Source: Acholeplasma laidlawii
GTDB taxonomy: Bacteria; Bacillota_I; Bacilli_A; Acholeplasmatales; Acholeplasmataceae
NCBI RefSeq assembly: GCF_015709225.1
Contig: NZ_JADNRS010000030.1
Coordinates: 1 to 61,091, forward strand
Direction of reading: 5' to 3'
DNA length: 61,091 nucleotides
Notes under the pieces: model-generated
The model's input: only the letters and a program-made list of their open reading frames with translations
What the model was told of the DNA's origin: nothing
Database searches by the model: none
Translations under genes and position numbers: made by a program
Shown: in pieces, positions 193 to 18,361 of the stretch
Layout: each line of letters opens with the position of its first letter
Numbering within the stretch: position 1 is the stretch's first letter

Positions 193-345
193 TAAATTAT
201 TGTACTTCAAACTCCAAGCAAACATATTAAAAGAGTATGATTATTTTACTAAGTAACTTGGTTTATGAATATCAATGTGTGGATGTACAAATTTGTGCAG
301 TTGAGATTTCTTATCTATTGTTTATATATTAAGTTATCTTAAATC

Positions 346-441
346 CTATAAGCGTAAATATTTAAAGTGATCAAGAATCCTATCTATAATTGCTTTAGTG
401 ATCATTTCATCATTACCTAATATATTTAAACCGAGTGCTTG
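346..441 (-). pseudogene. possible IstB (IS21 helper ATPase) C-terminal remnant
   Basis: On the minus strand a 32-codon open stretch reads GNDEMITKAIIDRILDHF followed by a few residues and TAG. This resembles the usual C-terminal signature of IstB-like helpers (GDEVIATAILDRLLHH). The frame is closed by a stop just upstream, so only the tail remains. It suggests an old IS21-type insertion in this otherwise gene-free stretch. The match is short and judged from memory, so confidence is limited. Confidence 0.3.
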
Positions 442-523
442 CTAAGGGTTTATTAACAGTAGAAGAAAAAGAAATACTTAATATAGATTAAGATGATGAA
501 ACATATTAAAGTAATGAAACTAT

Positions 524-550
524 AAGGACGAACATGTCCTTATTTTTATT
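524..550 (+). terminator. intrinsic terminator-like hairpin
   Basis: A 6-bp stem AAGGAC/GTCCTT (524-529 with 536-541) is followed by a T-rich tail. It would insulate the downstream methyltransferase from readthrough. Confidence 0.5.
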
Positions 551-573
551 TAACTATTATGGTTTCAATATGC

Positions 574-579
574 TAAAAT
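574..579 (+). promoter_or_regulatory. extended -10 promoter of the rRNA methyltransferase
   Basis: TAAAAT at 574-579 is preceded by TGC, giving an extended -10. The start of transcription would fall near 586. No convincing -35 is seen. Confidence 0.4.
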
Positions 580-610
580 ATGATGTATGATAATTTATTT
601 AAAATAAGAA

Positions 611-1903
611 ATGGTGGAAGTATATTTCATAACTTCTATAGTTAAAATAATGAGATTAAAAGTAAAAACAAATGATCTTGATTACCAAGGTCAAGGTGTA
701 ACAAGAATAGATGATAAAGTAACCTTTATAAAAGGTATGTTTGATGATGAAGTAGGTATCATAGAAATCACAAAATCAAAAAAGAATTTCCAACAAGCAA
801 AACTTATTGAACTTATTCAAAAAAATAAAGAACGTGTATCAGAAAACTCTTTTGACTATGCACCGTTTTTTGGAATCTCCTTAAAAGCAGAATGCTTATG
901 GCAACAAAAGATTACTAAAGAAACCATTAAAAAAATAACAAATTTAGATGTTGAAGTAGAAGACACCATTACAGATGGTAAGAAGCTAAACTACAGAAAT
1001 AAAATCACTTTACATGTAAAAAATATTGGTGGTTCATTAAAGATTGGTACCTATGAAGAAAACTCTAATTATCTTGAACCAATTGAAACACATCATCTTG
1101 CACTACCTGTCATAAATGATAAAATTACAATTTTAAATAAATGGCTTAAAACTTTTAAATTAGAAACTAATGATATTAAAAACTTTACCCTCAGAACAAA
1201 CGGTAAAGATGTGATGCTCATCATTGGTATAAAACTTAAGTTTGAAGGTGTAGAAAGCATCATAGATGAACTTAAAAAACACTTTGAATCCATCTACCTA
1301 AATATTGAAAAAAGAAGTTTTGAAAACCTATCAGATGAGTCAATTCATGTTTATGGTCTAGAGACCATAAACATGACATTTAATCACTTATCATTTGAAA
1401 TAGGACCTGAAAGTTTCTTCCAGGTAAATAAAGATGTAGCGATTTTAATGTATGATGAAATTAAGAAACTTACCCAAAATCACACAGTCATTGATGCTTA
1501 TGCAGGTATGGCAAGTATTGGTCAATATATTGATTCTAAAAAGGTATATGCAATTGAATCTAATCTAGATTCAATTACTCAAGCTAATAAGATATTAAAG
1601 GTAAATCAAATAGACCATGTAGAGTTGATTCATGGACAAGTAGAAGAAAAACTAGAAGCATACATCAAACATGCGGATGTTATAGTATTTGATCCACCAA
1701 GAAGTGGATTAACAGAAAGTATTATTGAACTCGTGAAACTGAATCAAATTAAGATGATTGTTTATGTGTCTTGTGATTTAAAATCACTAGCAAGAGATAT
1801 CAATGGCTTAAAAGATTTATATGACATTAAAAAGATCATTCCAGTTAGAATGTTCCCGTCTACAGTTCATATGGAAACAATTACCTTGCTTTCGTTAAAA
1901 TAG
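611..1903 (+). CDS. 23S rRNA (uracil-5-)-methyltransferase, RlmD/RumA/TrmA family
   Basis: Predicted SAM-dependent methyltransferase that makes 5-methyluridine in 23S rRNA. An N-terminal TRAM-like OB fold (about residues 14-75, GQGVTRIDDKVTFIKGMF) precedes the catalytic half with the family signatures FFQVN, the SAM loop DAYAGMASIG, DPPRSG, the catalytic-Cys motif YVSCD and the C-terminal HMETITLL. The cysteine cluster that binds 4Fe-4S in many RumA proteins is not evident; only one Cys lies in the region (KAECLWQQ). The start is uncertain: ATG 611 has no clear Shine-Dalgarno, and the family-like start MRLKVK lies at 650. It is a monocistronic gene with a strong terminator after it. Confidence 0.88.
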   Translation: MVEVYFITSIVKIMRLKVKTNDLDYQGQGVTRIDDKVTFIKGMFDDEVGIIEITKSKKNFQQAKLIELIQKNKERVSENSFDYAPFFGISLKAECLWQQKITKETIKKITNLDVEVEDTITDGKKLNYRNKITLHVKNIGGSLKIGTYEENSNYLEPIETHHLALPVINDKITILNKWLKTFKLETNDIKNFTLRTNGKDVMLIIGIKLKFEGVESIIDELKKHFESIYLNIEKRSFENLSDESIHVYGLETINMTFNHLSFEIGPESFFQVNKDVAILMYDEIKKLTQNHTVIDAYAGMASIGQYIDSKKVYAIESNLDSITQANKILKVNQIDHVELIHGQVEEKLEAYIKHADVIVFDPPRSGLTESIIELVKLNQIKMIVYVSCDLKSLARDINGLKDLYDIKKIIPVRMFPSTVHMETITLLSLK

Positions 1904-1968
1904 CACTTGTTATATACTTGACACATACTTGACAACTCTCTATTTTTAACCCAACTTAATAAAATCAG

Positions 1969-2006
1969 CCATCAGAAGACCTTCATAGGTATCCGATGGT
2001 TTTTTT
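1969..2006 (+). terminator. intrinsic terminator after the methyltransferase
   Basis: CCATC (1969-1973) pairs with GATGG (1995-1999), with an inner ACCT/AGGT stem, followed by seven T. The rest of the 1904-2178 stretch shows no gene. Confidence 0.75.
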
Positions 2007-2178
2007 GTCTATGTGTGCGAATTTCGTCCATTGTGGGAACATATTTTTTGATGAAAAATGACCTTTTTTGTCCGAAAGGTTGTCTTACGCAACACATTTA
2101 ACTCAACATGGAAGGAACAACAAAAACTTATTATGGTTCAAAATAGTGTAATTTCATTAACTGCATATTTTGTTGTGA

Positions 2179-2184
2179 TATAAT
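2179..2184 (+). promoter_or_regulatory. -10 box of the cadC-cadA promoter
   Basis: TATAAT at 2179-2184 lies 6 bp before a perfect inverted repeat, so transcription starts inside the operator. The -35 is weak (TTAACT near 2157). Confidence 0.6.
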
Positions 2185-2189
2185 ATACC

Positions 2190-2211
2190 TATATGAGCGT
2201 TCACTCATATA
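2190..2211 (+). promoter_or_regulatory. CadC/ArsR-type operator
   Basis: TATATGAG (2190-2197) and CTCATATA (2204-2211) form a perfect 8-bp inverted repeat with a 6-bp spacer. This is the layout of ArsR/SmtB-family operators. It overlaps the predicted transcription start, directly before the regulator gene, so metal-relieved autorepression is expected. Confidence 0.7.
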
Positions 2212-2225
2212 GATAGGAGATTAGT

Positions 2226-2591
2226 ATGGATCAAAAAGATATCATAGAGTTTTGTGAATGTAATGTTCTTCACCCTGATAAAATAGAAATAGCCCATAGA
2301 AATTTGCTTGATAATGAATCTATTTCACTGCTAACTTTGTTCTTCAAAACATTTAGTGATTCCACAAGAATGAAAATCATATTGGCATTAAAAGAAACCG
2401 AGTTGTGTGTATGCGATTTGTCTGCTGTAATTAATGTCAGTCAATCTGCTGTCTCACATCAATTGAAAACCTTAAGAGATAACCGTTTAGTCAAATACCG
2501 AAAAGAAGGAAATGTTGTTTATTACTCGCTTGACGATGACCACGTCCATGTGTTAATTACACAAGCAATGAATCATCTAAAACATAAGTAG
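2226..2591 (+). CDS. cadC: CadC-type ArsR/SmtB metal-responsive repressor
   Basis: A 121-residue winged-helix repressor that should release DNA on binding Cd(II), Pb(II) or Zn(II). The hallmark ELCVCD (C61, C63) of the CadC alpha-3N thiolate site is present, with N-terminal C10 and C12 as the other expected ligands. The helix-turn-helix is VSQSAVSHQLKTL. The last helix also carries D104-x-H106 and H117-xx-H120, the exact spacing of the alpha-5 zinc site of SmtB/CzrA. It has a good ribosome binding site (AGGAG) and lies 14 bp before the efflux ATPase, the usual cadCA arrangement. Confidence 0.93.
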   Translation: MDQKDIIEFCECNVLHPDKIEIAHRNLLDNESISLLTLFFKTFSDSTRMKIILALKETELCVCDLSAVINVSQSAVSHQLKTLRDNRLVKYRKEGNVVYYSLDDDHVHVLITQAMNHLKHK

Positions 2592-2605
2592 AATGGAGAA
2601 GAAAC

Positions 2606-4945
2606 ATGAAAGAGATTAAATACAGTTTATCAGAAATAAGCTGTGCGAGTTGTGCAGATAAGATTGAACAAAAGATAAAGAAGTTAAACGGAGTTGAGGA
2701 AGGTTATTTGAACTTTGTTACAAAAGAAATCAAGGTACAAGTTACGGATTCAACTGATACCGTAAGACTATTTGACACGATTAAAAAAATTGTGAAAGAT
2801 GAAGAGGGTGATGTCGAGGTATGTGAACTAACCCCAAATGTCATTTACATTATAGATGGTTTAGACTGTGCAAATTGTGCGGCTAAAATAGAAGAAAAAT
2901 TAAACAAAACCGAAGGAATTTTAGGTGCCAACGTTGATTTTCTAGCAAAAAAGCTAACACTTCAATTTAAAAATTCTCTAGATCAAAAACGTATGGAAGA
3001 GAAGGTTCAAAAAATCATTGATAAAATTGAACCAGGCGTAACTATAGCGCAATCAGATGTGAAGAATGAAGATCACGTTGACGAAGAATCAACGATGACG
3101 AAAGATCTAATCATCTTTGGCATAGGTATCTTACTATTTATTGGAGCATTATTGATTGCAAAAGGAACGGTTTTTTACTATGTACTATTTATACTAAGTT
3201 ATTTCATCATCGGTGGAGAAGTTGTACTGAAGGCAGTCAATAACATATATCGAGGTAAGGTGTTCGATGAAAATTTCTTGATGACGATAGCGACTATGGG
3301 TGCATTTGCAATTGGAGAACATCCTGAGGCAGTCGCAGTTATGATTTTTTATCAGGTCGGTGAGTTTTTCCAAGACGTAGCAGTCAATCGATCCAGAAGA
3401 TCCATTAAAAAATTGATGTCAATCAGACCTGATGTCGCAACGATTAAAAGAGGCAATACTTCTGTGGAAATGCGTGTTGAAGACGTTCAAACTGGAGAGA
3501 TAATGATCATTAAACCGGGCGAAAGAATTCCGCTTGATGGTGAAGTGTTGTCAGGAGATTCCACGATTGACACAAAAATTCTAACAGGAGAATCTGTGCC
3601 AGTAAATGTTACAAAAGGCGAGATGGTACTCTCTGGTTGTATTAATATCAACGGGTTATTGACCGTTAAAGTTACCAAACTCGCAAGCGAATCAACTGTT
3701 TCTAAGGTACTTGAATTGGTCGAAAATGCAACCAGCAAAAAAGCACCAACCGAGAATTTTATCACTAAATTTGCACGAGTATATACTCCAATTGTCACTT
3801 CGTTGGCTGTTTTGATTGCGGTAATACCACCACTCGTTATACAAGGTGCAACTTTTGAGGAATGGATCTATAGAGCACTTATATTCTTAGTTATTTCATG
3901 TCCATGTGCTCTCGTTGTATCGATTCCGCTTGGTTTCTTTGGAGGTATTGGAGCTGCATCAAGAAATGGTATCTTAGTTAAAGGTGGGAATTACCTAGAA
4001 GCATTAAATAAAATTGAGATTGCAGTTTTTGATAAGACTGGCACATTGACTGAAGGAACGTTTACGGTGACTGAAATCAATACAGCAAATGGTGCAACAC
4101 AAGAAGAGTTGCTCGAAAAAGCAGCTTATGTAGAAAGTTTTTCTAATCATCCTATCGCTGTCTCAGTCGTCAATAAATACAATAAACAAATTGATCAAAG
4201 TTTAATAACTGATGTTGAAGAAATATCTGGACACGGTGTGAAAGCAACCTATCAAAATGACGTCATTGCAATAGGGAATGCTAGGTTGATGAAAAGAGAA
4301 GGTATTGAATTCAAGGAATCTGTTGCCTTGGGTTCAATTATATACATCGCTATCAATGGGAAATATGTTGGAAATATTGTTGTCTCAGATCAGATAAAGA
4401 AAGACTCAAAAGCAGCTATCAAAATGTTGAAATCATTAGGCATTAAAAAAACTGTCATGCTAACTGGTGATAAGAAATTAGTTGCTGATACAGTTGGAAA
4501 AGAGCTAGATATCGATGAAATTCATAGCGAATTGTTGCCTGAAGATAAACTCAACATTGTAGAGGAGTTATTACTCCAAAAATCGAGCAAGGGAAAACTA
4601 TTCTTTGTAGGTGATGGTATCAACGATACACCAGTATTAGCGAGAGCTGATATCGGTATAGCTATGGGTGGACTCGGTGCCGATGCAGCCATCGATGTAG
4701 CTGATGTCGTGATAATGAATGATGAACCTTCAAAGATAGGTACTGCGGTCTTTGTGGCAAAGAGAACCAGAAAGATTGTTTGGCAAAATATATACTTCGC
4801 ACTAGGAGTCAAATTCCTGTTTCTAGCCTTAGGAGCTATCGGAATCGCAACTATGTGGGAAGCCGTGATTGCTGATGTTGGGGTATCTTTATTAGCAGTT
4901 CTGAACGCAATGAGAGTACTCAAATATGATTACAAAAATAAATAG
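2606..4945 (+). CDS. cadA: CadA-type Cd/Zn/Pb-exporting P1B ATPase
   Basis: A 779-residue heavy-metal P-type ATPase that pumps Cd, Zn and Pb out across the membrane. Two N-terminal HMA metal-binding domains carry CASC (residues 13-16) and CANC (near 90). Helices follow, then the TGES actuator motif, the transport site C432-P-C434, phosphorylated D476 in DKTGTLTEG, the SNHPIA nucleotide-binding motif, and the hinge motif GDGIND. The ribosome binding site is GGAG. It is cotranscribed with the CadC repressor. Length and order match CadA/ZntA. Metal preference is inferred from the CPC motif and the CadC partner. Confidence 0.95.
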   Translation: MKEIKYSLSEISCASCADKIEQKIKKLNGVEEGYLNFVTKEIKVQVTDSTDTVRLFDTIKKIVKDEEGDVEVCELTPNVIYIIDGLDCANCAAKIEEKLNKTEGILGANVDFLAKKLTLQFKNSLDQKRMEEKVQKIIDKIEPGVTIAQSDVKNEDHVDEESTMTKDLIIFGIGILLFIGALLIAKGTVFYYVLFILSYFIIGGEVVLKAVNNIYRGKVFDENFLMTIATMGAFAIGEHPEAVAVMIFYQVGEFFQDVAVNRSRRSIKKLMSIRPDVATIKRGNTSVEMRVEDVQTGEIMIIKPGERIPLDGEVLSGDSTIDTKILTGESVPVNVTKGEMVLSGCININGLLTVKVTKLASESTVSKVLELVENATSKKAPTENFITKFARVYTPIVTSLAVLIAVIPPLVIQGATFEEWIYRALIFLVISCPCALVVSIPLGFFGGIGAASRNGILVKGGNYLEALNKIEIAVFDKTGTLTEGTFTVTEINTANGATQEELLEKAAYVESFSNHPIAVSVVNKYNKQIDQSLITDVEEISGHGVKATYQNDVIAIGNARLMKREGIEFKESVALGSIIYIAINGKYVGNIVVSDQIKKDSKAAIKMLKSLGIKKTVMLTGDKKLVADTVGKELDIDEIHSELLPEDKLNIVEELLLQKSSKGKLFFVGDGINDTPVLARADIGIAMGGLGADAAIDVADVVIMNDEPSKIGTAVFVAKRTRKIVWQNIYFALGVKFLFLALGAIGIATMWEAVIADVGVSLLAVLNAMRVLKYDYKNK

Positions 4946-5106
4946 TTGATTTGATTCGAATGTGTTAAGGGATTGTGTTCATATTGGTTATGATAATCTT
5001 AGTCTCTTCAAATAAAAACAATTTCATCTAGTTGTAATCTAAGGGAGCATAATTGTATTTAAGTAGATAGATCAAACCAGAAGTTAAAATTAAGGTGGGG
5101 AAGAAA

Positions 5107-5570
5107 ATGTTATTTATATTTATAATAATATTATTGACAGGGGTTGATCAGTGGACAAAGTATCTTGCAGAAACACAATTGAAACCGCTAGGATTTATAC
5201 CCATTTTTCAAGATGTATTTCATTTAACTTATGCAAGGAATACAGGAGCAGCATTTAGCATTATGATGAATATGCAGGCATTTTAATAATATTCACAGCA
5301 ATTGTTATTGGCGTATTAACGTACTATTTAATACGATTATTTAAAACAAAAGAGGTAGCCCTTAAACTATCTTTAGCAATCATTATCGGCGGTGCTTTAG
5401 GGAATCTTATCGATAGAATTAGATTGAACTATGTGACCGACTTTCTCGAGTTTACACTAATTAATTATCCCATTTTTAATTTTGCAGACGTTTTTGTAGT
5501 TATAGGAGTAGTTATACTTTCATATATGCTTTTGTTTAAAGGAGCTATGCCTAAAATTTCTAAGTTATGA
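5107..5570 (+). pseudogene. lspA: lipoprotein signal peptidase (signal peptidase II), frameshifted
   Basis: LspA cleaves signal peptides of prolipoproteins in the membrane. The first frame (ATG 5107 behind AAGGTGG; VDQWTKYLAE, RNTGAAFS) ends early at 5284-5286. The next frame carries the rest, including the catalytic aspartate regions GNLIDRI and FNFADVF, to a TGA at 5568-5570. Adding one T to the run in GCATTTTAAT (5280-5283) restores a normal 154-residue protein. Either the gene is inactivated or this is a sequencing error in a homopolymer. An lspA copy next to cadCA is a known feature of Gram-positive metal-resistance cassettes, so a housekeeping copy may exist elsewhere. Confidence 0.85.
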
Positions 5571-5695
5571 AATGGGTTTCTGAAAATGAAATGTATACAT
5601 CATCTAATGTGATGCATGTGTATTTGGTGCTGATGAAAGTTTCATATGACAATCTTGTAGATTCAAACATAGTAACTCAGTTGTTGAACAAATAA
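5567..5695 (+). CDS. possible small protein overlapping the lspA stop
   Basis: An ATG overlaps the lspA stop as ATGA (5567-5570) and opens a 42-codon frame (starting MKWVSENEMYTSSN) to TAA 5695. The four-base overlap is typical of translationally coupled genes. No family is recognised and there is no separate ribosome binding site. It could be chance. Confidence 0.22.
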   Translation: MKWVSENEMYTSSNVMHVYLVLMKVSYDNLVDSNIVTQLLNK

Positions 5696-5786
5696 TAAAA
5701 TTGGCTATCTTGTAACAATGATGTCAAGCCTTTTTTTGACTTAAATAAGTATAATTAAGAAAACGTCTATTGTATCAATTATTTGC

Positions 5787-5792
5787 TATAAT
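5787..5792 (+). promoter_or_regulatory. extended -10 promoter of the acetyltransferase
   Basis: TATAAT at 5787-5792 is preceded by TGC. A -35 is not evident. Confidence 0.5.
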
Positions 5793-5831
5793 GATGTAAA
5801 GCATATAAAACAAAAATGGGGATAGATGAAC

Positions 5832-6314
5832 ATGGATTTTAATCATATCACTATAGAATATATTAGCGATATAAATTCTGAACAACTTCAAAATATAGAA
5901 AGATTAGATGTGAGTGAATCTTTTGTAGATTCTTTAGATTCTATTAATGCATATACGAATTATGGACTTGAACATCATTTAAAAGGACATACATATTTAA
6001 TTAAATATCAAAATGAACTTGCAGGTATATTACTCATAGGAGAAGGTATAGCATGGGAAACAGATCCTATAGAACTTAAAGATGTACCTTTTTACCGCTT
6101 AATGGATTTTATTATTGTCCAAAAATACAGAAATATTGGACTAGGCTCATTTGTGATTGAAAAAGTTATTACTAATATGTATGAAGAATTTGGTGTAAGA
6201 CCAATTGTCTTAGGAGTACATAAAGATAACATTGGAGCTGAAAAATTCTACTACAAGCACGGGTTTGTTAAAACAAACTATATGGACGGCGATGATTATT
6301 ACTTTATTCGCTAG
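5832..6314 (+). CDS. GNAT-family N-acetyltransferase
   Basis: A 160-residue GCN5-related acetyltransferase that would transfer an acetyl group from acetyl-CoA. The acetyl-CoA loop is visible as KYRNIGLGSF (Q/R-x-x-G-x-G type), followed by the usual late segment DNIGAEKFYYKHGFVK. The substrate cannot be deduced. I prefer ATG 5832 because GGGGA at 5818-5822 is 9 bp away; the in-frame ATG at 5826 would leave only 3 bp. It stands alone behind its own promoter. Confidence 0.8.
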   Translation: MDFNHITIEYISDINSEQLQNIERLDVSESFVDSLDSINAYTNYGLEHHLKGHTYLIKYQNELAGILLIGEGIAWETDPIELKDVPFYRLMDFIIVQKYRNIGLGSFVIEKVITNMYEEFGVRPIVLGVHKDNIGAEKFYYKHGFVKTNYMDGDDYYFIR

Positions 6315-6416
6315 ACTTAGTCATAAAAAGGGAAAAAAATATAAAAACATATATCATCAAGTAAGTCAAATATTTACAGTAATTAACGATAATGTGAAAT
6401 TTATTAATTTATAGTG

Positions 6417-6422
6417 TATAAT
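6417..6422 (+). promoter_or_regulatory. -10 box for the diguanylate cyclase
   Basis: TATAAT at 6417-6422, 30 bp before the start codon. The element at -35 (TGTGAA, 6394-6399) is poor. Confidence 0.4.
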
Positions 6423-6451
6423 AAAACGAATCATTTTTAGGGAGAGAAAGC

Positions 6452-7534
6452 ATGTTCATTAAATCTATGATTAAGGGTCTATTTTTTAATATGAACCCTT
6501 TATTTGAACGTAATAAGCATGACATTATACGTTACAATAAACAACTAATACCTATCGCATTTATTTTTTCATTGGTTACTATTTTAATCCCAATGTTTTT
6601 TTCACTATTTAGACCATCCATGCTAGAAACCTTACCGGCTTATCTAGTTATATTTAGTGTTATTATACTTTTACTTATCCTATTTAACTTTAAACCATTT
6701 CATGAAAAACCTTTAGTGTTTGCTTATACATTTGGTATTGTGTTCTTTATATTTGTAGTATACCTAAGTATAGATAGATTTCAATCTAGACCAGCTGGTA
6801 CTGCACTCATATTTTTTGTTGTTGCACCTTTAATATTTGTAGATAAACCATATAAGATAAACATCTATTTAGTGTTAATGTTTATTATTCATACGATATT
6901 ATCCTTTCAATATAAGACATTTGATATAGCCTCAGTTGATTTATTAAACTCATTTATCAGTCTTGTAGCTGGCATGTTATTTGGTAGAATCTTCTTAGTC
7001 ACTAGATTGATAAATTTTGATATGCACAGAGCACTTTTAATAGAAAGAGAAACAGACTTTTTAACGGGTCTACCAAACCGCCGATCACTATTTGAATATG
7101 CTCAAAAAGATACATTTAAGGCATATAATTATATGGGTCTTATGATGTTTGACATAGACCGTTTTAAAAAGTATAACGATAACTATGGTCACTTAAATGG
7201 CGATCAAGTACTTACAGAATTTGCACGACTATTAGAAGTGTTTTCTAAAACATACCCAGTTAAATTTTACCGATATGGTGGTGAGGAGTTTATTGGAATC
7301 ACGTACAACCTAGATAAATTAGAACTCATCAACCTAGCAAATCATATTAAAATGGATACCTTTAAATTGAAAGTACCGTTTGAACAAGTCACTACAAGTA
7401 TTGGTGTTACTGTTACAGATAAAACTGATAATATAGATATAAATGATTTGATAGAACAAGCAGATAAAGCATTATACTCTGGTAAAAACAGTGGTAGAAA
7501 TAAAGTGATTTTTTACGAGAAAAAATATAAATAA
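6452..7534 (+). CDS. membrane diguanylate cyclase (GGDEF domain)
   Basis: A 360-residue protein with about six transmembrane helices (residues 30-195) and a C-terminal GGDEF domain that makes c-di-GMP from two GTP. The signature is G276-G-E-E-F280, an active variant, with the upstream D-x-L-T-G-L-P-N-R-R and FDIDRFKKYND motifs. The RxxD inhibitory site normally five residues before GGDEF is missing, so product feedback is not expected. The helices could sense a membrane or small-molecule signal. No c-di-GMP receptor or phosphodiesterase is in the window. The ribosome binding site is AGGGAGAG. Confidence 0.9.
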   Translation: MFIKSMIKGLFFNMNPLFERNKHDIIRYNKQLIPIAFIFSLVTILIPMFFSLFRPSMLETLPAYLVIFSVIILLLILFNFKPFHEKPLVFAYTFGIVFFIFVVYLSIDRFQSRPAGTALIFFVVAPLIFVDKPYKINIYLVLMFIIHTILSFQYKTFDIASVDLLNSFISLVAGMLFGRIFLVTRLINFDMHRALLIERETDFLTGLPNRRSLFEYAQKDTFKAYNYMGLMMFDIDRFKKYNDNYGHLNGDQVLTEFARLLEVFSKTYPVKFYRYGGEEFIGITYNLDKLELINLANHIKMDTFKLKVPFEQVTTSIGVTVTDKTDNIDINDLIEQADKALYSGKNSGRNKVIFYEKKYK

Positions 7535-7547
7535 AAGTATAAGAAAA

Positions 7548-7576
7548 GGGCAGTTGTTTTTAGTAGACAACTGCCC
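7548..7576. terminator. bidirectional terminator
   Basis: GGGCAGTTGT (7548-7557) pairs perfectly with ACAACTGCCC (7567-7576). It lies between two convergent genes with A/T-rich tails on both sides, so it can end both the cyclase and the glucanase transcripts. Confidence 0.8.
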
Positions 7577-7591
7577 CTATTATTTAATTAT

Positions 7592-9079
7592 TTAAACGCG
7601 TTTATATGGTGTATAGCTTTTTTGAGGTTTGGTTTCTGGTTTTAATACAACAAACCCGTATGGTTCTAATGTAATGTTCATAAGTCCAGCTAAGAGTGTC
7701 ACAGGTTTGACATTTCCTAATACTGTCTTAAAATTGGAATAATTCATTAATCTTGAATCCTTTAATAAGACAGTTTCAGAAACGTCCTCTTTAGATGGAT
7801 TTATCGCGATGATACAAGTATCCTCAACTTTATCAGTAATACGCATATAACATAATAAGTCATCTGCATTTATGGCTATAAAATCACCAATTTTAAGAGC
7901 TCTTTCTCTTTTATGAAGACTAATTAAAGATTGAGTCCACTTTAGAGTTTCATTCTTATCGTTAAATAAATCCCAGTTCATCGGTGCTCTATTCATTGGA
8001 TCGTTTGCACCATCCATGCCAAGTTCAGTACCATAATACAGATTAGGTGAACCAGGTAGCGTAAACTGCATGACTTGAGCAAGGCGTTGTAGTTCAAGTT
8101 TAGGTAGAAGATGCTTTAATCTTGCAACATCATGATTATCAAGTAAGTTCCAAGATTTTAAAATCGGTTCAATACCTGCATCATCAATGGTATCTTTAAA
8201 CATTTTAATGGCTTTATGAGGTGATAGTTCACCAGATAATAATCTTAAAGTAATTTCTCTAAAAGTAAAATTCATAACACCGTCAATAGATTTTAACCAT
8301 TTTTCAGGATAGTTCCAAATCTCACCAACAATCATCACATCGGATTTATCTTTTCTAGCATAATCTCTTAGTTCACTTAAGATATCAAAACCGATATCAA
8401 AAGCAACATCTAATCTCCAGCCATCAACACCCATTTGAATATAAGAACGGATAACGGAATCATCTTGTTTGAAAATATAGTTTTTAACATCTTCATGTTC
8501 TAAATTAAGTTCAGGTAGACTCGGAGCATCTGCCCATAATCTAACACCTCTTGGGTAAACATCATTAAAATCAAAGAAGTGTCTATAACCTTCATGTTTT
8601 AGTGCTTTTTGAAACATCGGGTTGCCTACACCCACATGGTTAAATACCCCGTCTAACATGATTTTCATATCATGTTCATGCACATTTTGAATCAGTTTTT
8701 TTAAATCTTCTTTAGTACCATATTCTTTAGATATCTCTAAAAAATTGGTTGCATCATACTTATGATTAGAAAGGGATTCAAAAATAGGATTTAAATAGAG
8801 TACATCCATACCAAGATTTTTAATGTAGTTTAAACGCTCATTTAAACTATTTAAATCTCCACCCCAAAAATCAAGTTCATGAGACCAGTATCTATGATCT
8901 TCTAAGAAAGTACCTGGTTTTGGTAAATTTTTCCAATCATGTAGAGTTTTAGGATATGCATATAACCCATTTTTAGACTCTAAATGACTTGAAGGATTAA
9001 ATCTATCCACTAAGACTTGATAAACTAATGCGCCATTTCGCCAATCATTTTCTCTTAATTTAAATTTATTGTTGTTCAT
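7592..9079 (-). CDS. GH13 alpha-glucan hydrolase (alpha-amylase/neopullulanase family)
   Basis: A 495-residue cytoplasmic GH13 enzyme that should hydrolyse alpha-glucosidic bonds in maltodextrins. The four conserved regions are visible: DGVFNH, GWRLDVAFD with nucleophile D224, GEIWN with acid E253, and LLDNHD with D317. It has no signal peptide. It lacks the N-terminal CBM34 domain seen in the second GH13 enzyme of this window. The start at 9079 is chosen because GAGGTGAT lies just upstream; the longer frame adds 21 residues with no ribosome site. A palindrome resembling the LacI-family operators of the maltodextrin locus lies at 9149-9162. Confidence 0.88.
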   Translation of the reverse strand: MNNNKFKLRENDWRNGALVYQVLVDRFNPSSHLESKNGLYAYPKTLHDWKNLPKPGTFLEDHRYWSHELDFWGGDLNSLNERLNYIKNLGMDVLYLNPIFESLSNHKYDATNFLEISKEYGTKEDLKKLIQNVHEHDMKIMLDGVFNHVGVGNPMFQKALKHEGYRHFFDFNDVYPRGVRLWADAPSLPELNLEHEDVKNYIFKQDDSVIRSYIQMGVDGWRLDVAFDIGFDILSELRDYARKDKSDVMIVGEIWNYPEKWLKSIDGVMNFTFREITLRLLSGELSPHKAIKMFKDTIDDAGIEPILKSWNLLDNHDVARLKHLLPKLELQRLAQVMQFTLPGSPNLYYGTELGMDGANDPMNRAPMNWDLFNDKNETLKWTQSLISLHKRERALKIGDFIAINADDLLCYMRITDKVEDTCIIAINPSKEDVSETVLLKDSRLMNYSNFKTVLGNVKPVTLLAGLMNITLEPYGFVVLKPETKPQKSYTPYKRV

Positions 9080-10892: not shown

Positions 10893-12767
10893 TTATTTTT
10901 TAGCTAACATGCGTAATCCATTTAAGATAACTAATATGGTAGAACCTTCATGGGCTACAACGCCAAATGGAAGATTGACTAATCCAAAGATATTAAATGA
11001 AAGTAATGTAAGTATAACAAGCAGTGAGAATATCATATTTTGATAGATGATAGATTGATTAGCTTTTGAGATTCTAAAGATCTTATCAATGTTTTCAATT
11101 TTATTATTCATGAAGATGATATCCGCAGTTTCAAGTGACACATCAGATCCACTTCCCATTGAGGCACCAATGTCTGCAATGGCTAGTGCTGGTGCATCAT
11201 TTACACCGTCTCCAACCATCATGACTTTACCATATTGTTTTTGAAGTTCGATAATGTGTGCACTCTTTTCATGTGGTAATGCATCTGCAATAATAACATC
11301 AATACCCGCTTTTTGCGCAATCGCGTGGGCTGTTGCATTGTTATCACCTGTAAGAAGAATAGGTATGATGTTTTCTTTTTTAAGTTTCATGACCATTTCT
11401 TTAACGTTTGGTCTTAATTTATCAATGAGTGAAATATATCCAATTAAGTTGTCATTTAAGATGATTTGAACAATAGAGTTTCCATTTGATTGGCTTTCTA
11501 CCATTTTTGGAGTCACTACATCAGACTTCATATGATCAAACTTACCGATTTTGTATTCATCTTTACCAATTTTGAGTGACATACCTTTTCCAGGTATTTC
11601 TGTTACTGGATTTGGTTTATAGGTTGTTGAATCTTCTAAAAAAGTAGTAATTGCACTTGCTAGCGCATGATTAGATAGTTTCTCTACTGAGTAGACAATA
11701 TCAAGAATATCTTGTTTATTATAATTAGGATCGACAAATACATCAACAACTGCAGGTTTACCTTCTGTGATTGTACCAGTCTTATCAAATACAACAACCT
11801 TGATACGGCTTAAGTCTTCTAAGTATTTACCACCTTTAATTAATACTCTACCTCTTGCAGCATTAGATAAAGTAGATAACATTGTAGGTGCAACACTTGC
11901 CATAAGTGCACATGGAGAACCAACAACTAATACAACCGTACCACGGTAGAATGCTTGATCCCAAGTCCATGTATTAGTTAGTGGTGGAATCAGCATGAAA
12001 CCTATCGCAAGAAGTATTACAAAATACACATACCATTTTTCAATTTTTTCAATACGAGTTTGTGTATGACCTTGATTATCTTGTGCATCGCGAACAAGTT
12101 TAATAATTTTATTGACAACGAACTCTTCTGGTCGTGTTGTAATCTTAACTAAAATCGCTGAGTTTAGATTATATGTACCAGCAAATACCTCATCATTTTC
12201 ACCCTTATTCACCGGCATAGATTCACCAGTAATTGCAGCTTGGTTAATTGCGGTTGAACCTTTAAAGATAAGACCGTCAACTGGAATTGCATCCCCAACC
12301 TTAACAATAACAATATCTCCAAGTTTAAGATCATTAATTGCTACAACCGTCTCTACACCATCTTGGTAAAGGGTTGCTCTTTCAGGTGAAAGATTTAACA
12401 GGGAAGTTAATTCTTTTTGTGATTTATTATGTGCAAATGTTTCCATTAAACCAGAAATTGCAAATATCATAATAAGTAATGCAGCTTCAAGTGGATTACC
12501 AATAATAAATGCTGACACAGCTGCAATAATCATTAAGATTTCTACGTTTAATGCCTTGTTAGCAATAGTTTCCTCAACACCTTCTTTAGCTTTGAAGAAC
12601 CCACCTAATATAAAGGATAAAGCATACAATACGATAAGTGGTAATTGAACATTATCTCCATTATTTGGAAGCAATGTAAAGTTTAATATGACGGCTACTC
12701 CTAAGAGTAGAACCGATGTGACAACGAATGTAAGTTCGATATTTAATCTAGTAAATAATTTTTTCAT
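10893..12767 (-). CDS. PIB-4 type metal efflux ATPase (PfeT/ZosA/CzcP-like)
   Basis: A 624-residue P-type ATPase without N-terminal metal-binding domain. The transport helix has S284-P-C286 instead of CPC, the phosphorylated residue is D328 in DKTGTITEG, the hinge is GDGVND, and the last helix has H606-E-G-S. SPC together with HEGG/S-T is the signature of PIB-4 pumps, which export Fe(II), Zn(II) or Co(II). The start at 12767 is set by GAGGT seven bases upstream; the longer frame has no ribosome site. PerR-like boxes upstream suggest that it is the Fe(II) exporter PfeT of the peroxide response, but zinc cannot be excluded. Confidence 0.88.
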   Translation of the reverse strand: MKKLFTRLNIELTFVVTSVLLLGVAVILNFTLLPNNGDNVQLPLIVLYALSFILGGFFKAKEGVEETIANKALNVEILMIIAAVSAFIIGNPLEAALLIMIFAISGLMETFAHNKSQKELTSLLNLSPERATLYQDGVETVVAINDLKLGDIVIVKVGDAIPVDGLIFKGSTAINQAAITGESMPVNKGENDEVFAGTYNLNSAILVKITTRPEEFVVNKIIKLVRDAQDNQGHTQTRIEKIEKWYVYFVILLAIGFMLIPPLTNTWTWDQAFYRGTVVLVVGSPCALMASVAPTMLSTLSNAARGRVLIKGGKYLEDLSRIKVVVFDKTGTITEGKPAVVDVFVDPNYNKQDILDIVYSVEKLSNHALASAITTFLEDSTTYKPNPVTEIPGKGMSLKIGKDEYKIGKFDHMKSDVVTPKMVESQSNGNSIVQIILNDNLIGYISLIDKLRPNVKEMVMKLKKENIIPILLTGDNNATAHAIAQKAGIDVIIADALPHEKSAHIIELQKQYGKVMMVGDGVNDAPALAIADIGASMGSGSDVSLETADIIFMNNKIENIDKIFRISKANQSIIYQNMIFSLLVILTLLSFNIFGLVNLPFGVVAHEGSTILVILNGLRMLAKK

Positions 12768-12844
12768 ATAGACCTCGTTTCTTAGTAATAATCTACCACC
12801 AATATTATAAATAGTCAACTTATTTATAAAAATAATTACCTTAT

Positions 12845-12859
12845 TTATAATAATTATAA
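12845..12859 (-). promoter_or_regulatory. PerR-like box upstream of the efflux ATPase
   Basis: TTATAATAATTATAA is a perfect 7-1-7 palindrome and matches the Bacillus PerR box consensus TTATAATNATTATAA at every position. It lies 78-92 bp upstream of the ATPase start. Bacillus pfeT, of the same family, is PerR controlled. AT-richness makes a chance match possible. Confidence 0.5.
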
Positions 12860-12875
12860 TGAGCAAGTGCTCTAT

Positions 12876-13001: not shown

Positions 13002-13076
13002 GCACAATTAGCTCAGCGGGAGAGCACCTGCTTGACGTGCAGGGGGTCACAAGTTCAATCCTTGTATTGTGCACCA
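13002..13076 (+). tRNA. tRNA-Val (anticodon GAC)
   Basis: A full cloverleaf: acceptor GCACAAT/ATTGTGC, D arm GCTC/GAGC, anticodon stem CCTGC/GCAGG with loop TTGACGT (GAC), T arm ACAAG-TTCAATC-CTTGT, and an encoded CCA end. Confidence 0.95.
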
Positions 13077-13090
13077 TGTTAACATTGATT

Positions 13091-13120
13091 AGAGATTCTT
13101 CTGCGAGAGTCTCTTTTTTT
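13091..13120 (+). terminator. intrinsic terminator after tRNA-Val
   Basis: AGAGA-T-TC pairs with GA-G-TCTCT around 13091-13114, followed by a run of T. Confidence 0.7.
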
Positions 13121-13256
13121 AATCCTAAAACATTAATTAACAAAAAACTATATAAAAGATATATAATAAAGATGATTTATCGGTGAAATTATATTAGTAT
13201 TTGTTTTACTTTGGGGATTAGGATTATTCCAAACAAACGATTGGGTAACAGAAGCA

Positions 13257-16200
13257 ATGGTACGTCAGTACATCTCTTTTATACCTTTTGGTAATGAACA
13301 ACTCGTTGAATACATGGATGAGATTGTAGCTAGTGGTATGTTACCTCTGTTTTTAGCAATTGTCGATTTAAGTATTAAAATGAGTATTTTCATTGTCTTT
13401 TACACAATCCTTAGAGCTATATTCAAATGGTTCTTATTTGGTATACCTTGGTTAATATTTATTAAACCGATTGTTAAGGATAAAGAAAAGAATAAATTTT
13501 TAGGCGGTATCGTAGGTATCTTTAGAGGTGCCTTTGCTGGATTTTTCTTAATCTTTCCTGTCTTAATTATCATTAATACAGTAGTTGGTGAGGGTGTTGA
13601 GTTAGATAATCCCGAATACAGTGATATTGCCCAAGCAGTATCACAAGCAAATCAATATAACTTTGTTAAATATATTAATGATGCGACTAAAGTTAATGAT
13701 ATTGGTCTAGCAGATTTCATGTTTGACCTAGCTTTTAAATCTAAAGTCAATGATGACGAAATGATTGTTTGGCGTGTCGAATTAAAATGGATTGCTGAAG
13801 CAGGTAAAGTAGCACTACCTTATATATTAGATGAAAATTCGGAAATGGAAATCACCTTAGCTGAAATCACTAAATTCGAAGGCGCTTTTACCGCGTTTTC
13901 TAATTCTCAACTCTTAAACTCAAGTGTCAAACCAATGATGAAATTTGCTATCCTTGTCGCATCAGAACAAGAAGGATTTGATTTCTTATCAGAAACAGAA
14001 ATTGCTGATTTGATTACACAAATCGATGGTGTAGATATTGATTTATCAAATGATGTCAATGAAGTATATCTTGCAGCTAAAGAATTATTAACCATACAAG
14101 ATTATGCACAATGGCAAGCATCGCTTGAAAACCTTGGTTTAATAGCAAACTTTGATAGCGATGATCAAGACTTATTTATAAGTGCATTAAATAGATTAGT
14201 TACCCTTGATTTACTTAAACTAGCAGATCCTATTTTATCTGTAGGTATGTATGATCAATCTATCGTTGATCAAATTACTTGGTTAGAAACCAATGAAGAA
14301 AAAGTAGAACTACTGAATAGCGTTCGTGCAAAATTAAATGCTTATGAAGGTGAATTTGTCTCAACAACTCTAAGCGAACTTGTTGGATTATTTGAGACAA
14401 CATTCTACAGTTTCCCAGGTATTGATCTTGATGGTGATGGTACAACCGATGTCGAACTATCTGAATTAATAGAAAACATGGAAGACTTAAGTATTATATT
14501 AAATAAAGATCCACAATATCATACTTGGTTTAAAGAAGTATTAGATGGTGTTGGTTCATTATCTGTGATTGACGTATTTATGGAACCACTCATGGGTATT
14601 GCTTACAGTCAAATAGCCGGTCAAGATGAAATGTTTGATGAAACAGAATTAGCATTATTAAAAGATATTATAGAAACTAACTTTAGCGATAGTGATGACT
14701 TAGTAAGAGAACTAACTTGGATTGCTGATGTTTATTATGCGATTGGTAGTTTAGAAGTAGGCGAATTATTAAAGGCTGGTGAAACACCAATTGTTATTAT
14801 GGACACATTACTTGTTGATAATGATGGTCAACTGCTATTTAAAGAAATGGTAGATACCTTCTTAGAAGGTCAAACAATTAGTGCATTAACAAATCAAATG
14901 AGTAGTGCACTTATTAGAAAATATGTCACTGAACCAGTGACATTAGCTGAGCCACTCAACCGTGCAGCAGCAATTTCTTCATTTAATTTTAATACTGAAA
15001 TTAATGTATTATTAGATGTCTTATTCGGTCTATATGATGAAGGTATGACACTTGAAGCAGCAATGAGTACAGAAGAAGACTCTAATATGCTAGAAACATT
15101 ATTACCTTCCATCATTACTTATATTAGAGATGAAGCACAAAAAACTAAGTTATTATCATCTAACATCCTATATTCATTCTTAGATTATAACTTATCAAGT
15201 ATCCCAATGCTTGAAATGCCTGAAGTGATTTATGAAACAGAAGGTATGTATGAAGGTTGGATTAAAAAGACTGAATTATCTAATTTATTATCCGTTATTG
15301 ATGGTTTATTAACTGAAATGGAATCTCATGATATGGGTATTGAAGATCTCTTGGGTGGTATGGAATCTATGAATGAATTCTTCCCTGTGATTAAAGGCTA
15401 TGCAAGTAGTGAAGAAAATAGAGATACACTCTTATCATCAGATATCATTTATAAGACCGTAGATGACTTGATTCAAGGTATTGATTTAATTACTATCCCA
15501 GATAATGCAATCGTTACTGATGTCAACTCACCATATTATGAATGGACAGAACGTGTTGAACTTAAAAAGATATTAGAAGCAATTGTAATTATGAATGTCG
15601 ATGTACCACAAGAAGGCGAACAAATGAACTTAGATGCTATTACAGGTGAACAGATTAATGATGTAATCCTTGTAGAATCTAAAGTTATGACAAGACTACT
15701 TACAACCTATATTAAAGATGCAAATATTTTTGATATCCCTGAAGTAGCTTATGAAACGAATGAAGCACTTGATCTTAAACAAGAAGAACTCGAAGCGTTA
15801 GGTAATTTATTAGTTGATTTAAACCTTACATTAGGGGACTTAATTGGTGGTGGCGCTGGTAACTTACTAGATAGTTATTATGTAAGTGACCTAACAAGCT
15901 TAGATTATAGTCAATCCTATCTAATCAAAGGATTTATTACCCACGGTATTAAAACCGGTATTGGCACACCGCATTCACTTGCACTTGATACAACTTACCC
16001 AGAAGTATTAAGTAATACTGAAATCGGTGAATTATTCAACATCTTAAATGCATTAGATACTATACCATCTATGACTGTACAAGGATTAATGGATACACTG
16101 GATCCAACCGTTTTAACCTATGAACAAACATCCGATATCATTAATAGTGGAGACTCTATCGTTATTAGATCTTTATTTAGTGATAATTTATTAGGTACTC

Positions 16201-17585
16201 AAATCATTAGTGACCTAACACTTCAAGATGTAGCATATCATGATAATAATAGTACCTATGTCTATGATTTAATTAGTTACGATGAAATGAAAAAATTAGT
16301 CGATGCACTTGCTAACTTATTTGAACCAACAGATGTTGTTGTTGACTCTGTTACAAACCTAGATACAGATACATTAACCATTCATAATATGATGCTCATG
16401 CATCAAGAAACATCTAGTATCATCCGCACATTAATGAGTGATTCTATTATTGGGTTTGCTACACCTCAAAGAATATCTGATGACGCATATGATAAATTAG
16501 CTCTAGGTGATTTAACTTACGTAGAATTAACTAATTTCTTAAATGCAATCGCTGTATTAGATACCACATATAATGATGGTGACTTAAATAATGACTTACC
16601 AGTAACAGATTTAGTGGATACATTAGCAGGTACTGTAGGTCAACTTAAACTTGGACAAATGCAAAGTATGCATCAAGAAGGCTCACTGATTATGCAAAAA
16701 TTCATGTCAGAAGGTATTATCGCAGCTGTACAAAGACCAAATGTTAGAGATGATGCATTTAGTGACCTAACAATGGAAATTGTTGATCATGGTGAAATTA
16801 CGAAGTTACTCCTATCACTTAATGATATTGCATTATCTATGCATGCAAATGATCAAAACTTAGCTGATGATGAAACAATTACCAATGTAGAATCTAACAT
16901 CTCAACAAACCTAGAAACATCACTGATTCGTACAATAGCTACAAGAGAATCTATTATTGTTTATAGAAAAGTAACAAATGCAATCAGTTCAAGCCTACCA
17001 GTTGCAATACCTACACTAGCACTACAAAACCATGCATATACAGGTGATGATATTACATCGACTGAACTTGTTAACTTGACTTACGCGCTTGATGACCTTG
17101 GCTTTACAAATATTGATACATCGATAGTTGACTCTGGGGCATCTGATTTATTAAATGTAAAAGATGCATTAACTAGAAACTCTTATATTATAGATAGAAT
17201 GATTTCAGATGCTGTAACTACTGCAGGTTTAGATACTGTAGAATCTCATACAGGTATGGAAGATCCACTAATTGATATTCAAAAAGATGAACTAACAAAT
17301 TTAGTAGACGCGTTTATTGCGTTTGGTATTAGTGATATCAATAATGCTACAAGTACAAGCATGGCTACATTATATGCAAGTGCTCAAGCAATGAGTGAAA
17401 CCGAATTTAACGCTTATATCGATTTTGTTGAACCGTATGATCCATTAACAGAAGATCTCAGATTAACTATTGTTAAAGACTTCTTGATTGCTAAACTAGA
17501 TAACCAAATTTCAGATCCGTTTAACTTCCCAAATAAGATCTCAGTTACAAACCGTCAAGAACTACATGATTTAATTTACCCATAA
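13257..17585 (+). CDS. giant membrane-anchored repeat protein with CvpA-like N-terminus
   Basis: At least 1442 residues. Residues 1-115 hold several hydrophobic helices, including FLGGIVGIFRGAFAGFFLIF, which resembles the late helices of CvpA-family proteins. The remaining ~1320 residues look extracellular, acidic, helical and apparently Cys-free. From about residue 610 a degenerate 70-90 residue unit recurs about nine times, with core S-x-I-I-R-x-L-x-S-D-x-I and then t-E-L-x-x-L-x-x-A-L-x-x-L (for example SSIIRTLMSDSIIG, 1053-1066). D390-x-D-x-D-G-x-x-D is a calcium-loop-like segment. There is no C-terminal anchor. The frame stays open upstream to 13176 and adds a hydrophobic helix (ILVFVLLWGLGLF) but no ATG/GTG/TTG, so the true start is unresolved. 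Function unknown; adhesion or envelope scaffolding are guesses. Confidence 0.75.
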   Translation: MVRQYISFIPFGNEQLVEYMDEIVASGMLPLFLAIVDLSIKMSIFIVFYTILRAIFKWFLFGIPWLIFIKPIVKDKEKNKFLGGIVGIFRGAFAGFFLIFPVLIIINTVVGEGVELDNPEYSDIAQAVSQANQYNFVKYINDATKVNDIGLADFMFDLAFKSKVNDDEMIVWRVELKWIAEAGKVALPYILDENSEMEITLAEITKFEGAFTAFSNSQLLNSSVKPMMKFAILVASEQEGFDFLSETEIADLITQIDGVDIDLSNDVNEVYLAAKELLTIQDYAQWQASLENLGLIANFDSDDQDLFISALNRLVTLDLLKLADPILSVGMYDQSIVDQITWLETNEEKVELLNSVRAKLNAYEGEFVSTTLSELVGLFETTFYSFPGIDLDGDGTTDVELSELIENMEDLSIILNKDPQYHTWFKEVLDGVGSLSVIDVFMEPLMGIAYSQIAGQDEMFDETELALLKDIIETNFSDSDDLVRELTWIADVYYAIGSLEVGELLKAGETPIVIMDTLLVDNDGQLLFKEMVDTFLEGQTISALTNQMSSALIRKYVTEPVTLAEPLNRAAAISSFNFNTEINVLLDVLFGLYDEGMTLEAAMSTEEDSNMLETLLPSIITYIRDEAQKTKLLSSNILYSFLDYNLSSIPMLEMPEVIYETEGMYEGWIKKTELSNLLSVIDGLLTEMESHDMGIEDLLGGMESMNEFFPVIKGYASSEENRDTLLSSDIIYKTVDDLIQGIDLITIPDNAIVTDVNSPYYEWTERVELKKILEAIVIMNVDVPQEGEQMNLDAITGEQINDVILVESKVMTRLLTTYIKDANIFDIPEVAYETNEALDLKQEELEALGNLLVDLNLTLGDLIGGGAGNLLDSYYVSDLTSLDYSQSYLIKGFITHGIKTGIGTPHSLALDTTYPEVLSNTEIGELFNILNALDTIPSMTVQGLMDTLDPTVLTYEQTSDIINSGDSIVIRSLFSDNLLGTQIISDLTLQDVAYHDNNSTYVYDLISYDEMKKLVDALANLFEPTDVVVDSVTNLDTDTLTIHNMMLMHQETSSIIRTLMSDSIIGFATPQRISDDAYDKLALGDLTYVELTNFLNAIAVLDTTYNDGDLNNDLPVTDLVDTLAGTVGQLKLGQMQSMHQEGSLIMQKFMSEGIIAAVQRPNVRDDAFSDLTMEIVDHGEITKLLLSLNDIALSMHANDQNLADDETITNVESNISTNLETSLIRTIATRESIIVYRKVTNAISSSLPVAIPTLALQNHAYTGDDITSTELVNLTYALDDLGFTNIDTSIVDSGASDLLNVKDALTRNSYIIDRMISDAVTTAGLDTVESHTGMEDPLIDIQKDELTNLVDAFIAFGISDINNATSTSMATLYASAQAMSETEFNAYIDFVEPYDPLTEDLRLTIVKDFLIAKLDNQISDPFNFPNKISVTNRQELHDLIYP

Positions 17586-17601
17586 AAATTTAAGTACTTA
17601 C

Positions 17602-17628
17602 AAACCCAGAAAAGCACTTTCTGGGTTT
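17602..17628 (+). terminator. terminator-like hairpin after the giant gene
   Basis: AAACCCAGAAA and TTTCTGGGTTT (17602-17612, 17618-17628) form a perfect 11-bp stem. The T tail is weak. Confidence 0.6.
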
Positions 17629-17669
17629 GTATCTATGTTTATAAGCGTAACATTGAATAAAAAATAATG

Positions 17670-17675: not shown

Positions 17676-17701
17676 AGAACTATGAAAGGTAGGGGATGTG
17701 T

Positions 17702-18361
17702 ATGAAACCGTCATATGGATGGCTTCTTAAATGGATTCTAGCAGCAATATTAATCGCTGTAGGTCTTACAATGTTTTTCCAAAAAGATTTAGTATTTTTA
17801 ATTACAGGTATAGTGATTGTAGTGTTTTCACTATTTAGAGTGGTACCCCTTGTCAAATCACTTAACAAAGAAATTTTAAGAACAATTAACTTAATTGAGA
17901 TTATCTTTGATTTTTTATTAGGCGCATTAATGATTTATGTGGGTTATGAATCCATTAATTCAGGGAATGCAATTGATCCGATTTGGAGTCAAGTATATAA
18001 ATACACCTTAGCATTTGTATTCTTAGCTCGTGGTGTTGTATTCTTTTATTCCACAGTATTTTTGGAAGAGAAAACAGAACAAATTAAGTTTTGGACACAT
18101 ATTGTTATATTTGCATTAGGTGCATTAATCCTTGGATTAAAAGACTTTGATGAATCTGCAATTGCATGGTTATTACTTGTTATTTCACTATTAGGTGGTG
18201 CCTACTTAATCTATGATGGATCTAGAGGCTATGGTAAATACCGTGAGTACAGTTTGGGTATAAACACTAAAAAGGAAAAGGCTAAAAATGTAGAAAAAGA
18301 ATTACCTACAACAGATAAGCCACAACCTGAAAAAGATAGTGACAGACCATATATAAGTTAA
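17702..18361 (+). CDS. six-helix membrane protein, DUF308/HdeD-like
   Basis: A 219-residue protein with about six transmembrane helices in pairs and a charged, Lys/Glu/Pro-rich cytoplasmic tail of about 40 residues (from KKEKAKNVEKE). The opening SYGWLLKWILAAILIAVG and short helix pairs recall HdeD/DUF308 proteins, but this is a weak match. ATG 17702 is chosen because AGGGG (17691-17695) is 6 bp away; the ATG at 17696 abuts it. It follows the giant repeat gene but has its own promoter and a terminator on each side. Function unknown. Confidence 0.65.
   Translation: MKPSYGWLLKWILAAILIAVGLTMFFQKDLVFLITGIVIVVFSLFRVVPLVKSLNKEILRTINLIEIIFDFLLGALMIYVGYESINSGNAIDPIWSQVYKYTLAFVFLARGVVFFYSTVFLEEKTEQIKFWTHIVIFALGALILGLKDFDESAIAWLLLVISLLGGAYLIYDGSRGYGKYREYSLGINTKKEKAKNVEKELPTTDKPQPEKDSDRPYIS

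Follow-up and report, generated by a model that had tools for sequence, protein, structure and literature searches.

A giant protein of Acholeplasma laidlawii, encoded within the 61,091-nucleotide stretch of DNA that we analyzed (hereafter the window), is, judged from sequence, one member of an undescribed family of giant proteins reaching well beyond Acholeplasma. The best reading of its function is a surface stalk or coat, which we infer with middling confidence; in its favor, computation gave nine repeat units, a CvpA-like anchor, an outside topology, a helical structure model, and the spread of the family. No description of this giant protein was found in the literature searched.

Repeat array of the giant protein

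The open reading frame (13176..17585, on the forward strand, as are all features of the gene and its flanks given below) contains 1,469 codons from stop to stop, and its first ATG, at 13257, opens a protein of 1,442 residues. The frame of about 1,450 residues proposed in the earlier note is real, although 13176 only marks the first codon that follows a stop, and ancestrally the gene did not begin at ATG 13257. Counted from this ATG, nine degenerate units start at residues 633, 726, 806, 885, 965, 1051, 1141, 1230, and 1307, with a spacing of 77–93 residues. Roughly nine such units had been noted by eye, and six of the starts lie within one residue of the positions then given and the others within 18.

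A repeat profile trained on proteins of other genera only, with no Acholeplasma sequence among them, recovered exactly the same nine units in the window protein, with 156.0 bits for the whole protein and 11–38 bits per unit. Internal-repeat detection had been set beforehand as a test, and the outcome is significant, the best of 2,000 shuffled window proteins scoring 9.8 bits. The matches define units 1 (15153..15431), 2 (15432..15671), 3 (15672..15908), 4 (15909..16148), 5 (16149..16406), 6 (16407..16676), 7 (16677..16943), 8 (16944..17174), and 9 (17175..17393), the last three of which are also covered by a structure model. The consensus reads S-x-I-I-x-R-x-I-S-x-x-I ... I-P-x-x-A ... I-x-x-x-E-L-x-x-L-x-x-A-L; a near-invariant S (90%) opens the first helix and a near-invariant E (87%) opens the second, much as in the units of 70–90 residues, S-x-I-I-R-x-L-x-S-D-x-I followed by an E-L-x-x-L-x-x-A-L helix, that had been described from the letters.

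The array is preceded by a helical region of about 516 residues (13605..15152) and followed by a C-terminal tail (17394..17582), both conserved in the genus. The long acidic region reported earlier was confirmed, with 226 D+E against 65 K+R in the 1,304 residues past the last membrane helix; the same region contains no cysteine.

Comparison of the window protein with Pfam, NCBIfam, and PDB sequences gave nothing usable, in line with the claim that the repeat belongs to no recognized family, and no confident match of the whole length to a described family was found in these three collections. No adhesion or binding domain and no protease family was recognized in the Pfam and NCBIfam scans. Pfam matches of DUF7779 and McpB_HAMP on the sequence from genome G032 were set aside, no single stretch being significant. 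We modeled units 7–9 with AlphaFold2, using 13 aligned rows built from nonoverlapping triples of units, and obtained a confident model (pLDDT 84, pTM 0.83) that is helical with short strands and agrees with the helical array suggested before. Foldseek found no match of this model in the PDB at E ≤ 0.001, fold comparison by VIA-align gave no Z above 2.3, and fold searches in a viral library and with a weak N-terminal model returned no significant match; a missing or weak match is no proof that the fold is new.

Alternatively, the units might stiffen the array by acting as cryptic calcium sites of the EF-hand type; we consider this very improbable. Motifs of the form Dx[DNS]GxI...E number 17 across the family against 0.8 in shuffles that ignore the conserved helix start, and Pfam EF-hand models sum above their cutoff on the protein of a foreign contig (L005, discussed below), but no single stretch of that protein passes the EF-hand cutoff alone. 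Moreover, the motif is found in none of the nine window units, the canonical first aspartate in no family member, and the canonical 12-residue EF-hand loop (D1, D3, D5, G6, E12) nowhere in the family.

Membrane anchor and predicted topology

The repeat genes nearly always start with a four-helix CvpA-like domain (40 genes), which is seen in all those with a captured, unbroken N terminus, the domain of L120 being judged by eye. The hydrophobic N-terminal helices noticed in the window protein belong to this domain, but the window copy keeps no helix 1: a remnant of helix 2 (13176..13235) lies upstream of the first in-frame ATG and is followed by helix 3 (13335..13463) and helix 4 (GGIVGIFRGAFAGF..., 13497..13604), past which the outside region begins.

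Among 30 N termini, 13 matched PF02674, the commonest family among the matches (best E 1.6e-6), but the best score, 28.4 bits in G046, stays below the Pfam gathering cutoff of 29.3 bits, and the window protein itself had no match to PF02674. A profile of the 30 N termini, compared with stand-alone CvpA proteins using hhalign, aligned over 179 columns spanning all four helices (probability 88.6, E 2.6e-6). An earlier profile–profile comparison with 13 N termini had been weak (probability 31) and became stronger only with 30, and just 34 columns were covered when the longer CvpA-like proteins from other families were compared. Four helices are also present in the N-terminal structure model of A. 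granularum, which is weak (pLDDT 63). Near-invariant positions of the domain are limited to a few glycines and basic residues. The CvpA-like anchor postulated in the earlier note thus holds as a likeness over four helices, while falling short of Pfam's cutoff for the family, and the anchor would work like CvpA, of which it is probably a remote relative outside Pfam's membership rule.

The loops differ sharply in charge: a net positive charge was found between helices 1 and 2 in 30 of 30 members, between helices 2 and 3 in none of 30, between helices 3 and 4 in 29 of 30, and after helix 4 in 1 of 30. By the positive-inside pattern, both ends of the domain and the repeat array are predicted to lie outside the cell in these 30 members, and the surface exposure of the array proposed earlier is retained as a prediction.

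With an anchor of this kind, the CvpA domain itself could be the working part, serving transport, secretion, or envelope stress, and the outside array would gate it or capture its substrate. In enteric bacteria, CvpA resides in the inner membrane and is needed for deoxycholate resistance (PMC6705877), and the CvpA-like domain is retained in nearly every member of the family. Nevertheless, the domain has diverged below Pfam's cutoff and conserves little beyond the glycines and basic residues, the length of the array varies, with about 1,240 residues at the low end and over 4,000 at the high end, and all three of the breaks described below strike the domain while the array stays open; we therefore think a working CvpA domain improbable.

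Lesions at the 5′ end of the gene

In relatives of the window gene, the ribosome site, the ATG, and the first membrane helix lie upstream of the retained frame. Compared with the closest relative, G002, the window lacks 170 bp between TTTATCGGT and TTTATTGGT, the two sequences that flank in G002 a piece containing GGGGAGG, the ATG, and the first membrane helix; the window copy has consequently no ribosome site, start codon, or helix 1 of that kind, and no ribosome site is recognizable before the ATG at 13257. The deletion junction (TTTATCGGT, 13176..13184) retains one copy of a 9-base near-repeat. A search of this assembly for the lost 170-bp stretch gave two short, chance-like matches only.

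Two further lesions were found in the family. In G002 the piece is still present, but a single inserted base directly follows helix 1 (L036 8342-8490), and in G206, a genome of another genus assembled as a single contig, a family member of 2,500 residues carries an in-frame TAG just after helix 2 (L121, just upstream of 15444, minus strand), where the relative G032 has TCG. Setting aside fragments at contig ends, these make three breaks in 40 repeat-bearing genes with about 80,000 codons, all within the first 60 codons and none elsewhere. A rough estimate from the gene lengths puts the chance of three of three evenly spread breaks falling in the first 60 codons at about 5e-5. Past the lesion, a comparison of the window gene body with that of G002 gave dN 0.012, dS 0.082, and dN/dS 0.147, against 0.11 in two neighboring membrane-protein genes, and the gene body is under purifying selection.

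These patterns bear on an account, to which we give equal weight for and against, in which the window copy was recently broken by slippage between the two 9-base near-repeats, the strain makes no protein, and the function is that of the intact orthologues. In its milder form, breakage before helix 3 would be tolerated, since a protein started after helix 2 would still be anchored by two helices and keep its array outside. The 170-bp deletion with its loss of GGGGAGG, ATG, and helix 1, the near absence of the lost stretch from the assembly, the separate lesions of G002 (insertion) and G206 (TAG), and the confinement of all three breaks to the first 60 codons speak for such breakage; the remaining 1,469 open codons and their dN/dS speak against it. 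Faulty sequencing or assembly could account for any single lesion, yet such errors would not be expected to gather at the 5′ end; the events number only three, however, and the window and G002 are closely related.

The first remaining ATG in both the window and G206 lies past helix 2, and a start there would keep helices 3 and 4 with unchanged orientation. Lacking its ribosome site, start codon, and helix 1, the window copy may be silent, may be poorly made by way of a later start, or may be a misassembly of the deletion site. That three genomes each carry a separate lesion at the 5′ end while the remainder of the gene stays open suggests an easily switched-off gene or tolerance of a shorter anchor, though the pattern may also be coincidence.

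Family spread, function, and known systems

All seven other sampled genomes of the genus, including A. granularum, A. equifetale, and A. oculi, carry an orthologue (40–97% identity), and the gene is intact in the laboratory strains A. granularum ATCC 19168 and A. oculi. The repeat profile matched 52 of the 395 genomes in the class sample (E ≤ 1e-5), and all 31 matches in a phylum sample of 392 (E ≤ 1e-6) fell within the same class; two small-genome genera of the same taxonomic family (g7 and g8) had no repeat-profile match. The shortest frames of the family have about 1,240 residues and the longest over 4,000, with tandem units numbering nine in the window copy and up to about 24 elsewhere.

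Upstream of the window gene, a tRNA-Val(gac) gene (13002..13076) occupies the same place in G002, G004, and G006 and serves as a syntenic marker, preceding the giant gene in four of the eight loci examined. A terminator-like hairpin (13091..13114) after the tRNA gene separates it from the giant gene, a -10-like TATAAT element (13162..13167), also present in G002, may act as its promoter, and a second terminator-like hairpin of 14 pairs (17599..17631) lies directly 3′. Flanked by these two hairpins, the giant gene is probably transcribed alone. Downstream, a 221-aa membrane protein (17696..18361) is a conserved neighbor that may be functionally unrelated, and the gene order in the genus is giant, 221-aa membrane protein, and then the acc genes and fabH. 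In other genera, the giant often lies downstream of dnaE (a name assigned by eye), so the family looks chromosomal and largely vertically inherited.

This setting bears on a role of the array as a host-attachment adhesin. The protein is large, is placed outside by its topology, and differs between species in repeat number, as would suit such a role, but Acholeplasma has been described as ubiquitous and saprophytic (PMC4221730), no binding domain was found, and the family occurs in many lineages beside housekeeping genes (dnaE, acc) and not in variable islands. We consider an adhesin unlikely, if somewhat less so than a working CvpA domain.

The assembly contains a second giant of the family, apparently one gene split between L062 1-4866 (G000, contig C52) and L005 3-4481 (contig C22). 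We rejected it as a paralogue: its GC3 is 0.12–0.14 against 0.20, it adjoins a second dnaE-like fragment that is 36% identical to the genome's own, and no orthologue was found in the other tested genomes of the genus. It is probably contamination from another organism and was left uncounted. Beside it, L063 encodes two lipoprotein-like surface proteins of very large size (266-5131 and 5412-8732), and YTITFDSNGG-type motifs recur in the first of them.

Several other observations were made along the way. In one taxonomic family of the class (f24), two giant family members are adjacent (L104, L105, L114). CvpA-like proteins of about 570–790 residues in other families of the class (L094, L095, L097, L098, and L103) have a long part past the membrane helices and are possible further CvpA fusions. 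The window itself also encodes a GGDEF (diguanylate cyclase) protein (6452-7534) in a wall-less genome and two heavy-metal P-type ATPases (2606-4945 and 10893-12866) about 6 kb apart.

The wall-less host assumed in the earlier note is supported, and the family shows an association with the absence of mraY. In the class sample, mraY is missing from 41 of 52 carriers and from 187 of the 343 noncarriers (Fisher p 8e-4), and it is missing from 28 of the 29 strongest carriers (p 2e-6); over the whole sample it is lacking in 228 of 395 genomes. With shared ancestry uncorrected, the association is a lead. Of the 52 carriers, 11 have mraY, weaker matches among them, so a wall is compatible with the protein.

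Under the stalk or coat reading, the intact form would be held by its N-terminal CvpA-like domain, with four membrane helices and both ends outside, and the rest of the chain, the helical region and then the tandem helical units, would extend outside the cell and form an acidic array free of cysteine. Its likeliest role would be mechanical, as an extended stalk or coat over the bare membrane and possibly a contact surface too. A bolder version, which we regard as a long shot, is that the arrays form a coat that mechanically replaces the lost peptidoglycan in part, is fixed to the membrane by a CvpA domain put to new use, and has been passed down through the wall-less lineages of the class, with expression repeatedly switched off by lesions at the extreme 5′ end.

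Giant, conserved proteins without a name leave a gap in what is understood of wall-less bacteria. In this family a recognizable membrane anchor is joined to a repeat that has no curated family or clear solved fold; the family is of sufficient age to occur in several taxonomic families of one class, and it goes with the absence of mraY. It makes the covering or stabilizing of the bare membrane by wall-less cells a testable question, and the choice between a switched-off gene and tolerance of a shorter anchor is testable in itself.

Among known systems, helical-repeat solenoids (ARM, HEAT, TPR) are likewise made of tandem helical units, but no significant fold or sequence match to them was found, and the S ... 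I-P-x-x-A ... E-L signature is the giants' own. Mycoplasmas use giant surface proteins for gliding and cytadherence; these resemble the present family in being very large and at the surface of wall-less cells, but they have a different anchor. With the CvpA/Colicin V production protein family (PF02674), the giants share four membrane helices, a basic G..RG..K turn after helix 1, and a glycine-rich fourth helix, while they score below its gathering cutoff and, unlike stand-alone CvpA, carry an outside extension of 1,000–4,000 residues. Enteric CvpA has four to five predicted helices in the inner membrane, and Pfam groups it with small-solute transporters (PMC6705877). The mycobacterial membrane serine protease MarP (Rv3671c) is similar to the giants in having four N-terminal helices and a C-terminal part outside the membrane (in the giants, as predicted by loop charges), but that part is a trypsin-like protease in MarP and a repeat array with no recognized enzyme in the giants. 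MarP is related to CvpA. The N-terminal membrane helices of MarP, four in number, bear a domain in the periplasm, which provides a precedent for the architecture of the giants (PMC4992679).
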